From: Acidobacteriaceae bacterium
Lineage (GTDB): Bacteria > Acidobacteriota > Terriglobia > Terriglobales > Acidobacteriaceae
Length of the DNA stretch: 64,000 nt
Assembly (NCBI GenBank): GCA_025352065.1
Contig: JANXUC010000090.1
Span: forward strand, 1-64,000
Direction: 5' to 3'
Shown: positions 39,406 to 44,581 of the stretch, piece after piece
How positions within the stretch are numbered: the stretch's first letter is position 1
Layout of the letters: the number at the start of each line of letters is the position of its first letter
The notes under the pieces: generated by a model
Seen by the model: the letters and a program-made list of their open reading frames with translations, nothing else
Told to the model about the DNA's origin: nothing
Databases searched by the model: none
Position numbers and translations under genes: made by a program

Positions 39406-39505
39406 CGTCTCTTAGCCAGGAGCCGAAAACCGATGGCTGACAGCCGACGGCGATTTTCCCAGGCAGCTAGAATGGCAGAAGATGCGTCCAACCCTGCAGG
39501 AAACT

Positions 39506-40438
39506 ATGAAATACGTCTTCGCAGTCCCGTTGCTGCTCGCCACTGCCCTGGCGCAGACGCCCAATAAGGCCAGCGCGTCTGATCCGCCGTCGAGTCTGGT
39601 GCAAGGCTCCCATCCAACGCAGGCAGCTAACCCCGCTCCAGCCGCGAAGCCGCCGGAGACCAAGCCGCTTGAAGACGAGAGCACCGTCAAAGCCCGCGCC
39701 TTGGTCGAGAAGACCATCGAGGCCCTCGGCGGCCCCGCCTACATCGGCTACACCACGCGTAGCGAGCAGGGCCGATCCTACACGCTCTACCATGGGCGCG
39801 CGCGAGATGGCGGCGTGCTCTACCGGCGTTTCTTCCGTTACGGCGAAAAGGATCGCGTGGAATTCGCGCTGGGTTCCTACGGTTCCTGGCTCGATGTCGC
39901 CCAGACCCAAGCTCCCATTCAGCTGCCGGACCCTAAAACGAACAAGAGCACCGATGTTGCCCTGATCCACAACGGTGATAAGGGCTATGAGGTCACCTTC
40001 AAAGGAACCGAACTGGAGGAGCCTAAGCTCACAGCCGATTACCTGCGTCGCCGCCAGCGCTCACTGGAAAAGGTTTTGCGGGAATGGCTCCACGAACCGG
40101 GAACCGCGCTTTTCTACGAAGGCCAAGCCTTGGCGGACAACAAGCTCGCCGACCAGATCACCATCACCAGCCCGCGCAACGAATCGGTAACACTGTTTTT
40201 GGACGCGACCACGCACATTCCCGTCAAAAAGACTTACTCCTGGCGCGATGCCACCGACAAGTTCCGCAACGTCGAGGACGAGGTCTACGACAACTACAAG
40301 CTGGTGCAGGGAATCAAGACCCCGTATTCGCTCACGCGCTACTACAACGGAGACATGGCCTACCAGCGTTTCTTAAGCAAGATCACGTACAACGAACAAC
40401 TGGCTGATTCTTTGTTTGACGCGAGTTTGACGAAGTAA
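39506..40438 (+). CDS. Exported protein, lipoprotein-carrier-like pattern, function unknown
   Basis: The chosen ATG follows AGGAAAC and gives 310 residues with a short signal peptide (FAVPLLLATALAQ). After a Pro/Ala-rich linker comes a beta-rich domain with the pattern VEKTIEALGGPAYIGYTT, typical of acidobacterial exported proteins thought to resemble outer-membrane lipoprotein carriers. No catalytic motif was seen. It is 100 bases downstream of the SDR. I infer a periplasmic location but no specific role. Confidence 0.68.
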   Translation: MKYVFAVPLLLATALAQTPNKASASDPPSSLVQGSHPTQAANPAPAAKPPETKPLEDESTVKARALVEKTIEALGGPAYIGYTTRSEQGRSYTLYHGRARDGGVLYRRFFRYGEKDRVEFALGSYGSWLDVAQTQAPIQLPDPKTNKSTDVALIHNGDKGYEVTFKGTELEEPKLTADYLRRRQRSLEKVLREWLHEPGTALFYEGQALADNKLADQITITSPRNESVTLFLDATTHIPVKKTYSWRDATDKFRNVEDEVYDNYKLVQGIKTPYSLTRYYNGDMAYQRFLSKITYNEQLADSLFDASLTK

Positions 40439-40767: not shown

Positions 40768-41130
40768 CTACCGGCGGCGCGCATCTTTCGTCTCAGCTTC
40801 TGCGAACAAATGAATCTGACGGGCATCCGGTTTCTTGGGTCTGGGCAGCAACGCCCGCGCCGAGCGCTGCTTCAATACCTGCATCACCGTTGATGGTGTC
40901 CCCACTTCCGGTTCGCCGAGTAAGAGATGAATATGTTCCGGCATCACCACATAGCCGACGACCACATAGCCGACGACCACGAAGCGGTAACGCTGGCGGA
41001 CCTGGTCCAGAATTCTCAGGAACGTATCCCGCTGCCTGGCGCCGCGCAGCAGGGGTCTGCGACGAAAACAGGAACACGTGATAAAGTGCAGGGGATGAGC
41101 CCCGTAGAAGCGCTGAATGCGAGGCGACAT
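40768..41130 (-). pseudogene. Damaged REP-associated tyrosine transposase (RAYT, IS200-like Y1 family)
   Basis: The N-terminal HFITCSCFRRRPLL and the VMPEHIHLLL block carrying the His-x-His metal motif of Y1 transposases are clear. The C-terminal part with the catalytic Tyr segment is absent: the frame stops after about 120 residues, just past HLFAEAETKDARRR. A 15-base tandem duplication (units at 40947-40961 and 40962-40976) turns VVVGYVV into VVVGYVVVGYVV directly before the metal motif. RAYTs normally move REP sequences; this copy is probably inactive. A hairpin lies just upstream (41161-41186). Confidence 0.8.
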
Positions 41131-41160
41131 AACTACCCTATAATATCGGCAGCATCGCTC

Positions 41161-41186
41161 CCGCCCTTGCAAAAAAGCAAGGACGG
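41161..41186. repeat. REP-like hairpin upstream of the transposase
   Basis: Arms CCTTGC and GCAAGG enclose six A residues, extended outward by CCG and CGG with one mismatch. Its place beside the RAYT gene fits a REP element, but only one copy was seen. Confidence 0.5.
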
Positions 41187-41264: not shown

Positions 41265-41288
41265 CCCGTCTGTCCCCGTATTATTTCG
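41265..41288. repeat. REP-like sequence, left flank of the Rhs-tip segment
   Basis: CCCGTCTGTCCCCGTATTATTTCG. It shares TCCCCGTATT(A/T)TTTC in the same orientation, and CCCGTCTGTCCC in the opposite orientation, with the sequence at 43491-43523. Confidence 0.5.
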
Positions 41289-41320
41289 CAGTCGTAGTGA
41301 TATGCACTCGCATCGTAGAG

Positions 41321-42112
41321 TTACGGCTTCGGTCGATCCTCGACCGAGATTTTACCGTTCACGTCGATGGTGAACATATATGCACCAGCACCTACGAACT
41401 CCGGTACTCGCGGCTTCCGCGTCAGGACGAGGAGCACATCGGTATCTTCGGGCAGGTCGCTCAGAACATGCGTGTGGTAGCCTCCCGCCACAGCATCTGG
41501 AGAATTTGCAGGAGCCGTCTCGATGATGCCCTTGTGCATTTGTCGCTTTTCGGTGATCTTCGTGCCGTCCGGGGAAACTCGGTAGCGCACATCGGCTCCC
41601 AAGGGATAAACGCCTTCCTTGACCTGTGCGGGGTACAGGTACACGTACATGCCCTCGCGCTCCGCCGGAAGTACAGCGATGTTGTATGGCCGACTTGCTC
41701 CGCCAAAATCTCTCATGGCGGTCTCGATCCCTTTTGCAGCCGCGAGATTCCACCCAATGTCCTCCCGCATCGGATCAAAACGCCTGACTTCGAACTTCGC
41801 CGAACTCCCCACTTGAACCGCTTCGTAGCCCACGAGGAACTTGTCCCCGGTCGAGTTGAGGCGGCCAAAATCCACAACCCAGCCCGCCTCGGTTTTCCGC
41901 GCGACGTAACGCCCCGAGCCGTCTGCTTTCGGATGAGCGGCCATGACTGCATCCGTGGCTTGCCACGCAGCCGTGTCGTACTCCGCAAGCAGCCGGCCCC
42001 GCTCGGTGATCGCAGCCTGTTCCGTAGCAGACGGTCTGTGCGTTGCATCGGCCTTTACGGTCACGAAGAGCAAAACCGCCACGGAGATACGGGCAAGACC
42101 TTTACTCTTCAT
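41321..42112 (-). CDS. Exported protein with a HTH-x-D motif reminiscent of JAB domains
   Basis: The chosen ATG (MKSKGLARISVAVLLF) begins a signal peptide; 263 residues. The C-terminal half has a pattern GGYHTHVLSDLPEDTDVLLVL, which resembles the metal-binding part of JAB/DUF4329-type domains (HTH, then S-x-x-D), but the Ser position appears to be Glu. The middle has VYPLGADVRYRVSPDGTKI. It sits downstream of an exported small protein and an Rhs tip with a clear JAB-like motif on the same strand. Whether it is a relative of that domain, an inactive one, or unrelated cannot be settled here. Confidence 0.55.
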   Translation of the reverse strand: MKSKGLARISVAVLLFVTVKADATHRPSATEQAAITERGRLLAEYDTAAWQATDAVMAAHPKADGSGRYVARKTEAGWVVDFGRLNSTGDKFLVGYEAVQVGSSAKFEVRRFDPMREDIGWNLAAAKGIETAMRDFGGASRPYNIAVLPAEREGMYVYLYPAQVKEGVYPLGADVRYRVSPDGTKITEKRQMHKGIIETAPANSPDAVAGGYHTHVLSDLPEDTDVLLVLTRKPRVPEFVGAGAYMFTIDVNGKISVEDRPKP

Positions 42113-42203
42113 GCGGGTACTCTTCGCGCTTGCGGCGGGAACGATAAAGCATAATTGATCTGACTTCACGGCCAGAGACTACAGCGCGAGAACTTCCGCA
42201 TCC

Positions 42204-42659
42204 TCACTTCGTTTTCGGCTCGAATGGAACAAAAGGCTGCCAACCACTCACCAGCAATATATGTACGAAGGTTCCACTGTTCAGAGCCGTGCCAGCCGGC
42301 CCCTTTGAGTGTAGAGTTCCCTCAACCATCACATACGTTTGATTTAGGCTCTTGAACTGCTTCTCTTGTTCCTCAGTTAGGTCGAGTGCGAAAGAGTCTT
42401 TCCACAAGGAAGCTTGGAGATCTGCCTCATGTAGCCACAGCCCATTGTTGTCGGGTCGAAGGTTGAGAAAACCCCACGTTCGGATCACCTTGCCGGTGTA
42501 CTTCTGTGGCGTTGCAAGCAGAGCCACCATGCCGACGCTGAGCGGTTGGGGGCCTTTCGTGTCTCCCGTTGAGAACGTGTCCACTGCGGTAAATAGCAGC
42601 AATCCGATCAAGAAGCTGGTGACTTTCCTCATCGCGTATCGCTTGATTTGTCTGTTCAT
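42204..42659 (-). CDS. Exported protein of unknown function next to the Rhs tip
   Basis: The ATG at 42659 is preceded by AAGGAAT and gives 151 residues; the signal region is FLIGLLLFTAVDTF. The mature part (VGMVALLATPQKYTGKVIRTWGFLNL, then NNGLWLHEADL) has a beta-barrel-like, OB-type pattern. It follows the Rhs-tip gene on the same strand after about 40 bases, the position where immunity genes for Rhs toxins usually lie. An immunity role is therefore a guess; I do not recognise the family. An upstream ATG at 42686 is less well placed. Confidence 0.5.
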   Translation of the reverse strand: MNRQIKRYAMRKVTSFLIGLLLFTAVDTFSTGDTKGPQPLSVGMVALLATPQKYTGKVIRTWGFLNLRPDNNGLWLHEADLQASLWKDSFALDLTEEQEKQFKSLNQTYVMVEGTLHSKGPAGTALNSGTFVHILLVSGWQPFVPFEPKTK

Positions 42660-42696
42660 CACATTCCTTAAATATCGCCGATGCACTCCCCAGCGA

Positions 42697-43590
42697 CTAC
42701 GGTATTACGCCGATCTTTGTTCCGTAGACGTTTGTATCGAAGGGACCCTTGACGGGCTCCCTCCCGGTATAGCGAAAGACCACGCCCGAATACGAATCTA
42801 CAACGTACCCGGTCCTTCCGTCTCCTAGTTGGCGAAGACGTCCTATGTCTTGGGGTGAAGGCCCCTGGCCCTCATCAGCCGTACCGTGAGGATGCGTGTG
42901 GTATTCCCCGACGACCGTATAGCCTTTGGGAACCAGAATGCTGTCTAAGTCAACTGATCTTTCTTTGCCAGCAATTGGCTTTGTGGCAGAAAGATTTCCA
43001 CTCTTGTCTCTCTGCAAAATCAACCCGCCATACTCGTGGTAGTCGCCATTCTTAACCGAATCACGTGTTGGCTTAATGGCCGCCGTTTCTGCCGACATTG
43101 CAACTTGATCGATTGTCTGCGGTTTATTTTGGGCCTCACCTTCGGGCGGTGTCGCGGTCTCAGACCCTTGTGCCGTGATCTCGGACTGCCTCAAACTCAT
43201 TTTAAACCCATCTGCTAAAGAGCCTGGGCCGCAGTGATCGCCCTCGCCATGAGCCATACAGTGGCCATCGGGGTCGTTTCGGCTAATTGGATCGTTGCGA
43301 ACGTAAACATAGAGGTTCAGTGATTGGGGGTCGCCGAACACTGCGTACGGAACTGAGGTCGGCCTAGCCGCCCAATCCGGCGTCATGAACCGCCCGGTGC
43401 TGCTTGCAAAGTATCGCGCCCCAAAATTGTCGAGATTGGATTCCGTATCCCTCGGCTTGCCCGTAAACTTGTATTGGTTTGGATAATACCGGGACAGACG
43501 GGACGTTCCCCGTATTTTTTCCGAAGCGAAGAAAACTAAGCTTGGCTTGTTAAGGCGGACGGAGACAGGCGCGATTTCTTTAGAGTGTTT
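42697..43590 (-). pseudogene. Rhs C-terminal tip with JAB/DUF4329-like domain, upstream part missing
   Basis: The open frame runs down from a TAG at 43591-43593. Its first roughly 30 residues are not Rhs-like. From about 43486 it reads as the typical Rhs core end: YKFTGKPRDTESNLDNFGARY, then RFMTPDW and DPQSLNLYVYVRNDPIS. A 170-residue variable tip follows with GEYHTHPHG and GPSPQDI, the His-x-His...Ser-x-x-Asp signature of JAB/DUF4329-type metalloproteases, plus an upstream EYGG. The N-terminal Rhs repeats are absent, and the join lies inside a REP-like palindrome at 43491-43523. The first in-frame ATG is 43386. Such orphan tips are usually remnants. Confidence 0.68.
43491..43523. repeat. 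REP-like sequence at the Rhs breakpoint
   Basis: GGGACAGACGGGACGTTCCCC plus a T-rich tail, containing a short hairpin (GGGA..TCCC). It is partly inverted and partly direct relative to 41265-41288. The Rhs homology begins within a few codons of it. Confidence 0.5.
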
Positions 43591-43699: not shown

Positions 43700-44581
43700 T
43701 TGGACTTCGAGCAGACAATCCGGGCCAGCGTGGAGTGCAGCGGGATCGGTCTCCACAGTGGGGCGCCAGTGCGTTTGCAGCTCCTTCCTGCGCCTTCTGG
43801 GACCGGGATCGTCTTTCGCCGCACCGACCTCGACGGCTTCGAAATTGAGGCTATCGGCCACAACGTCGCTAAAGTCAGTTACGCCACCAGTTTGATGAAA
43901 AAAGGCGTGCTCATTTCCACCACCGAGCACCTGCTGTCGGCCTTGGTGGGCGTTGGCGTGGACAATGCCATCGTCGAATTGGACAACCTTGAGCTGCCGA
44001 TTCTCGATGGCAGCGCTAAGCCTTTTGTTGACATGGTCTTAGGTGTTGGTTTACGTCGCCAGCGCCGCAAACGGACTTACCTGCGCGTGCTGCAACCGAT
44101 TGAGCTATCGGATCGCGGGAAATTCATTGCCATCTATCCGGCCGAGGGCTATTCCGCGTCGTATGCTATTGATTTTCCTCACCCTTTGATTGGCCGCGAG
44201 ACTTTCGAAGTCGAGCTCTCCAACGGCAGCTACATTGAGCAAATTGCTCCGGCACGCACGTTTGGATCGCGCGAAGACGAGCAAGCCATGAGAAACATGG
44301 GACTTATCCGCGGCGCTTCGCGCGATAACTGCGTGGTTCTGACGCGCGATGGGATAGAAAATCCTCCGCTGCGCTTCGAAGATGAGTTCGTGCGGCACAA
44401 GGTTCTGGATCTGATTGGCGATTTGGCCCTGATTGGAAAGAGGTTACTGGGACGCGTGGTCGCGGATCGCGCCGGTCATGCCATGCATACCGCGCTGGTG
44501 TCGCGCATTTTGAAGAACCCTTCGTTGTGTGAAGAAGTTACGTCGCAGGAAGCCGCTCTTGCGGCTACGCCGATGGTGTAG
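43700..44581 (+). CDS. lpxC: UDP-3-O-acyl-N-acetylglucosamine deacetylase
   Basis: LpxC performs the first committed, zinc-dependent step of lipid A synthesis. The 293 residues show GIGLHSGAPV near the N-terminus, STTEHLLSALVGVGVDNAI (first His of the zinc site), then LPILDGSAKPFVDM. The C-terminal half has EFVRHKVLDLIGDL (His and Asp) and a final GHAMHTALV His. The start is a TTG at 43700 (MDFEQTI), which puts the deacetylase at normal length. Its presence means the organism makes lipid A. It stands alone here. Confidence 0.96.
   Translation: MDFEQTIRASVECSGIGLHSGAPVRLQLLPAPSGTGIVFRRTDLDGFEIEAIGHNVAKVSYATSLMKKGVLISTTEHLLSALVGVGVDNAIVELDNLELPILDGSAKPFVDMVLGVGLRRQRRKRTYLRVLQPIELSDRGKFIAIYPAEGYSASYAIDFPHPLIGRETFEVELSNGSYIEQIAPARTFGSREDEQAMRNMGLIRGASRDNCVVLTRDGIENPPLRFEDEFVRHKVLDLIGDLALIGKRLLGRVVADRAGHAMHTALVSRILKNPSLCEEVTSQEAALAATPMV

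Follow-up and report, generated by a model that had tools for sequence, protein, structure and literature searches.

On the minus strand of the window, the 64,000-nucleotide stretch analysed here (contig C80, positions 1-64000, of a soil bacterium's 4.25 Mb assembly in 183 contigs), a block of three open frames (43590 to 41321) is best explained, with a probability of about 0.74, as an orphan, or displaced, Rhs toxin-immunity cassette that was inserted between conserved neighbours. The first frame encodes an Rhs core end joined to a DUF4329 (Tox-JAB-2) tip, the second a protein (P0001) that is exported and occupies the immunity position, and the third a further exported protein (P0002). The tip family, the displacement of tips and orphan modules are already known. 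New is P0001 as a probable second immunity family for Tox-JAB-2 tips, exported and present in none of the libraries searched. The features of the locus are the following.

39482..40438, plus strand: left flank gene, unnamed; adjoins lpxC in 21 collinear relatives
40768..41172, minus strand: remnant of a RAYT (REP-associated tyrosine transposase); Y1_Tnp 32.7 bits, cut-off 23
41265..41284, minus strand: left REP copy, outward-facing, from the REP search
41321..42169, minus strand: P0002, exported protein; probable ATG at 42112, hydrophobic N-terminus, family scattered over several phyla
42204..42686, minus strand: P0001, exported and OB-fold-like, immunity position; hydrophobic N-terminus, probable ATG at 42632
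42697..43485, minus strand: Rhs core end with DUF4329/Tox-JAB-2 tip, without N-terminal repeats; identified by domain scores and JAMM residues
43483..43521, plus strand: right REP copy, outward-facing, where the Rhs similarity ends, from the REP search
43700..44581, plus strand: lpxC, right flank; 56 of the 60 family genomes searched have a relative

Insertion of the block between two conserved genes

For the comparison of the flanks, 60 genomes of the family were searched with the right flank gene, which we take to be lpxC from its sequence, and 30 loci were taken, one of them the window's own. The left flank gene showed no Pfam match at E ≤ 0.01, and LolA-like is our working label for it only. 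It was within reach in 22 of the 29 other lpxC loci, collinear in 21 of them, and out of view in seven. The two flank genes are separated by 157-345 nt in 20 of the 21 collinear relatives and by 1,244 nt in the remaining one. Since the gap in the window is 3,261 nt, the block comprising the tip, P0001 and P0002 is an insertion between two conserved neighbour genes.

REP-like sequences are present at both ends of the block, as the first-pass annotation of this DNA had noticed. The copies at 41265-41284 and 43483-43502 are inverted with respect to each other and 95% complementary over 20 nt. The 20-mer was found at 12 sites of the genome at up to three mismatches and its 16-mer core at 14 sites at up to two, while the reversed control pattern gave none in either search; one of 100 shuffles of the window gave two matches to the REP 18-mer. 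Three REP pairs within 3 kb were observed, the one around the block among them, compared with about 0.13 expected for 14 random sites by our own arithmetic. A pair on C179 lies 25 nt apart, start to start. An outward-facing pair on C158, 2.5 kb apart (G000:C158:34935-37493, L052), encloses three genes, encoding a 211-amino acid protein without family, an AAA_31/ParA-type ATPase and a RelA_SpoT-domain protein, and this block looks like another accessory or defence cassette.

The RAYT frame next to the left REP copy matched REP_Tyr_transpos (NF047646) at 46.2 bits, under the cut-off of 80, over positions 2-88 of 146. It was thus read as a remnant, and its sequence is probably truncated. A perfect 15-bp tandem duplication at 40946-40975, inside the remnant, gives an in-frame VVGYV repeat. 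In two other genomes, G203 and G663, hairpin repeats follow cut-off fragments of P0002. The G203 repeat recurs on contig C33 of that genome, 115-200 nt ahead of an ORF which we take, judging by eye, to be a RAYT fragment; the window RAYT used as query gave no match to this ORF. No sign of current REP or RAYT movement was seen in the genomic data examined. The REP bracket as a vehicle for stranded tips would be new and is possible, and REP-bracketed cassettes would, if real, point to a way for stranded tips to arrive at new loci.

The orphan Rhs tip

The tip ORF extends, stop to stop, from 43590 to 42697 on the minus strand. It matched Rhs_assc_core (TIGR03696) at 60.2 bits (curated cut-off 32.5; positions 13-76 of 76) and DUF4329 at 35.9 bits (curated cut-off 28.6), confirming the Rhs core end and JAB/DUF4329-like tip proposed in the first-pass annotation, and a match to Prok-JAB remained under its cut-off. 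In the defence and phage libraries (PADLOC, PHROGs) JAB models matched the tip weakly (E 0.015 or worse), and phrog_10385 matched the ORF over its Rhs-core part (E 1.9e-8). A PDB sequence search with the tip alignment returned Rhs-type-core proteins, with JAB-domain proteins at E 0.18 or weaker. The residues listed for Tox-JAB-2 by Zhang et al. 2012 (PMC3482391) are E, H[ST]H, S and D. Every one of the 12 DUF4329 tips found in the class, that of the window included, has E, H, H, S and D at the JAMM positions, and the Ser-Asp spacing is longer in the tips of G659, G593 and G638. The tip domain of the window looks sound, and a metal site is predicted from the conserved residues.

Similarity to Rhs proteins starts at about 43470-43485, at the right REP copy, and the first ATG, GTG or TTG in the frame is at 43386, within the Rhs core. 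The N-terminal delivery part, the repeats (as noted earlier) and a start codon ahead of the core are all missing from the ORF. With its Rhs part starting at a REP and lacking a start codon, the tip is an orphan, detached from its Rhs N-terminus at a REP. Elsewhere in the genome there is a single further Rhs core end, which is interrupted by a stop, and there are RHS repeats at a few places. Some of these are at contig ends, so that a full Rhs may sit in assembly gaps of this genome.

The lack of a start codon ahead of the core, the stop inside the sole other Rhs core end and the partial RAYT below its cut-off are also what would be found in a dead scar, in which the tip, the immunity gene and P0002 would all be left over from a larger Rhs locus, without expression or selection of any of them. 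However, the frames of the tip domain, P0001 and P0002 are uninterrupted and retain their conserved residues, which a long-dead relic would lose, and we regard this explanation as rather unlikely. The earlier suggestion of a captured toxin-tip cassette, or the scar of one, is supported in the form of a captured or stranded tip with a protein in the immunity position.

The exported protein behind the tip

DUF4329 was detected in 12 of 399 genomes of the class and, in a different sample covering the phylum, in two of 297, the second one under the cut-off. The gene following the tip in the 12 class genomes encodes Imm-NTF2-2 in seven (G203, G532, G659, G663, G017, G085 and G133), all seven proteins scoring above the cut-off, and a P0001-type protein in four (the window genome, G000, and G593, G100 and G638), that is, in three genera besides that of the window. 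The remaining genome, G108, has a next gene of another kind, behind a VgrG-like gene. At this locus (G108:C119, L141) DUF4329 is fused behind a PAAR-like part next to the VgrG-like gene, and the next gene encodes 181 amino acids without a clear signal.

P0001 matched no family in Pfam, NCBIfam, PADLOC or PHROGs. It showed no match to Imm-NTF2-2 (PF15631), no Pfam family at E ≤ 1, and no PDB entry under E 0.1 by sequence. Its predicted structure is a poor model (pLDDT 59.8). With this low-confidence model Foldseek gave a best E of 6.3e-4, with many OB domains among the matches, and the best Z was 8.4 (rmsd 3.0 over 86 residues), which weakly suggests an OB fold.

When used alone as query against 250 class genomes, P0001 gave three non-self matches (G025, G203:C19 and G187), none of them beside a DUF4329 tip, and a sequence search of genome contigs gave 29 stretches, none of which was confirmed. 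The three other relatives that follow tips were matched by phmmer at 41.8, 20.9 and 16.3 bits, and hhalign of P0001 and L037 against L142, L146 and L140 gave a probability of 98 (E 3e-13). A six-member profile matched 19 of 399 class genomes, 12 of them at E < 1e-15. Half of these 12 strong matches are directly behind a JAB-type ORF (G000, G593, G100, G638, G585 and G553), the ORFs of G585 and G553 scoring 19.2 and 13.6 bits with DUF4329, under the cut-off; the other six stand alone (G025, G187, G203:C19, G570, G604 and G683). Since the search alignment included L142, L146 and L140, chosen for their position behind tips, three of the six adjacent cases and the query itself are not independent, and the independent support comes from G585 and G553. 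Among the seven weaker matches, those of G201 and G658 (E about 6e-4) come after Rhs cores whose tip is HExxH-like; the remaining five are not behind an Rhs tip. P0001 probably gives immunity to the DUF4329-type tip, in line with the immunity position first assigned to it.

The distant P0001-like exported proteins after the Rhs cores with HExxH-like tips (G201:C47, L187, and G658:C1, L188) are perhaps a case of OB-fold immunity to another metallopeptidase tip. At G585:C465 (L178, 3961-5492) three ORFs precede the P0001-type gene as a group: one that resembles a CHAP-type amidase, one for an exported protein and a DUF4329-like one that stands alone.

Export was judged by the mean hydrophobicity over 10 residues near the start, a rough index and not a signal-peptide predictor. 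The products of the genes following the 12 DUF4329 tips reach 2.2 in ten cases, 2.05 in G203 and 1.63 in G108, and 13 of 46 ORFs of the window, taken as control, also reach 2.2. Behind 11 of the 12 tips the next product is of the NTF2 or OB type and has a hydrophobic N-terminus. In G659, G532 and G338 the long proteins that join Rhs to DUF4329 have a signal-peptide-like (Sec-like) stretch at their start. With two unrelated exported partners behind Tox-JAB-2 tips, a target in the envelope fits better than one in the cytoplasm, and the predicted export thus argues for the envelope.

The toxin JABs were proposed to be nucleases by Zhang et al. 2012 (PMC3482391), and PMC7216683 cites another paper for an RNase activity of DUF4329. 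Both statements favour a tip acting as a cytoplasmic nuclease, with the exported proteins only intercepting it on its way. The occurrence of two unrelated kinds of next gene, with hydrophobic N-termini in 11 of 12 loci, speaks against this explanation, which we consider unlikely. Exported immunity could, nevertheless, only reflect a Sec-exported toxin crossing the periplasm of its own producer.

In the orphan cassette interpretation, intact loci would export the Rhs protein by Sec. The JAB tip, as a zinc peptidase or amidase, would act on the target in its periplasm or envelope, where the OB-fold protein, likewise exported, would bind and block it. In the window genome the tip would be expressed rarely or not at all, and the benefit would lie in the immunity gene, protecting against kin that still fire the same tip. 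A broader proposal is that REP and RAYT serve this lineage as joints of its mobile accessory cassettes, as at the two three-gene blocks bracketed by the same outward-facing REP and at the hairpin repeats of G203 and G663, with Tox-JAB-2 tips attacking the envelope; it is a doubtful one, to which we give little credence. Tox-JAB-2 tips had been predicted nucleases with one listed immunity family; a second, unrelated and exported family makes the site of action of the JAB toxin directly testable.

P0002 and comparison with known systems

P0002, which has the hydrophobic N-terminus expected from its earlier description as exported, showed no match in Pfam, NCBIfam, PADLOC or PHROGs and no PDB entry under E 0.1 by sequence. 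A search of 250 class genomes gave it in 12, one of them (G025) with a weak partial match, and GTDB contigs gave 43 loci. The named relatives are mostly Acidobacteriota; Planctomycetota, Gemmatimonadota, Eremiobacterota, Cyanobacteriota with Obscuribacterales, and one Spirochaetia record are also represented. Conserved neighbours were found only among close relatives.

The first-pass annotation had pointed to a weaker HTH motif (His-x-His) in P0002. Although this copy carries the motif, the family does not conserve it as a metal site: of 41 relatives, 40 retain the first His and 25 the second (Ala in 11), while a PEDTDV stretch is nearly invariant. The poorly kept second His means that this is not a JAMM site, and P0002 was rejected as a second JAB, or metalloprotease-like, protein. 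A relationship to DUF4329 was likewise rejected: P0002 has no Pfam match, one of 29 family members matched DUF4329, at E 0.16, and hhalign against the DUF4329 tips gave a probability of 11.8 over 15 columns. The AlphaFold model of P0002 (pLDDT 74.3) gave no convincing fold match (best Foldseek E 2.9e-3; best Z 5.5, rmsd 3.5, 48 residues), and no JAB protein was among the best structure matches listed.

The order tip, exported immunity protein, P0002 occurs in three genera of one family, intact in G000 and, in G203 and G663, with a 5′ fragment of a P0002-like gene after the NTF2 immunity gene. The refuting condition named in the first-pass annotation, that the three genes never occur together elsewhere, therefore did not come about: a tip, an exported immunity gene and the start of a P0002-like gene are together in two other genera. 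The complete trio in which the immunity gene is of the P0001 type was found in no other genome searched. G203 and G663 have in common a block of 1,019 bp, 82% identical, reaching from the tip domain into P0002, upstream of which their Rhs cores do not align; because they share one cassette, the order represents only two independent cases. A true three-gene system, with P0002 as functional third partner, could account for this order but is quite improbable, given the two independent cases, the lack of P0002 in 9 of the 11 other DUF4329 genomes and the lack of an Rhs core end at all 43 GTDB loci of P0002 (flanks of up to 8 kb, several shorter; the pattern used detects the known cores of the window, L035 and L057 and misses that of L046). 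P0002 is most likely a passenger, carried along with the tip and the immunity gene. In a separate observation, P0002 at G203:C33:111967-115933 (L032) lies beside two unnamed tip-like ORFs, without Pfam support, each followed by a membrane protein, and near the possible RAYT fragment; this is perhaps an array of orphan toxin modules and was left out of the evidence used above.

The block had initially been put forward as the best candidate for an undescribed system. This does not apply to the JAB tip, already described as Tox-JAB-2, and stands for the P0001 family. In the excerpts of the literature searched, PMC9635880 and PMC10469887 among it, OB-fold immunity to Tox-JAB-2 was not found. The window shares its tip family and conserved residues with the Tox-JAB-2/Imm-NTF2-2 system of Zhang et al. 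2012 (PMC3482391), as well as the association with an Rhs carrier, and the Imm-NTF2-2 of that system is behind the tip in 7 of the 12 class loci. In the window, by contrast, the immunity gene is from another family, which is OB-fold-like, and the tip lacks its Rhs carrier. The displaced rhs tips of Jackson et al. 2009 (PMC2935791) likewise consist of a tip with a core stub, detached from the main gene, and their differing cores upstream of a common tip resemble the case of G203 and G663; the window tip, however, is not downstream of an intact rhs in the assembly, and its core stub ends at a REP. The orphan rhs-CT modules of Salmonella (PMC7043789) are alike in having a tip without delivery part beside its immunity gene, whereas the window immunity protein is exported and its module is known from sequence alone. 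OB-fold immunity has been described for the CapCone-2 lipocone toxins (PMC12419801), a toxin family other than that of the window. Finally, Tde5 with Tdi5a and Tdi5b (PMC13392607) is a further example of one toxin with two unrelated immunity proteins; both of these protect against the toxin, a DNase, which they bind jointly, whereas each Tox-JAB-2 tip is accompanied by one or the other.
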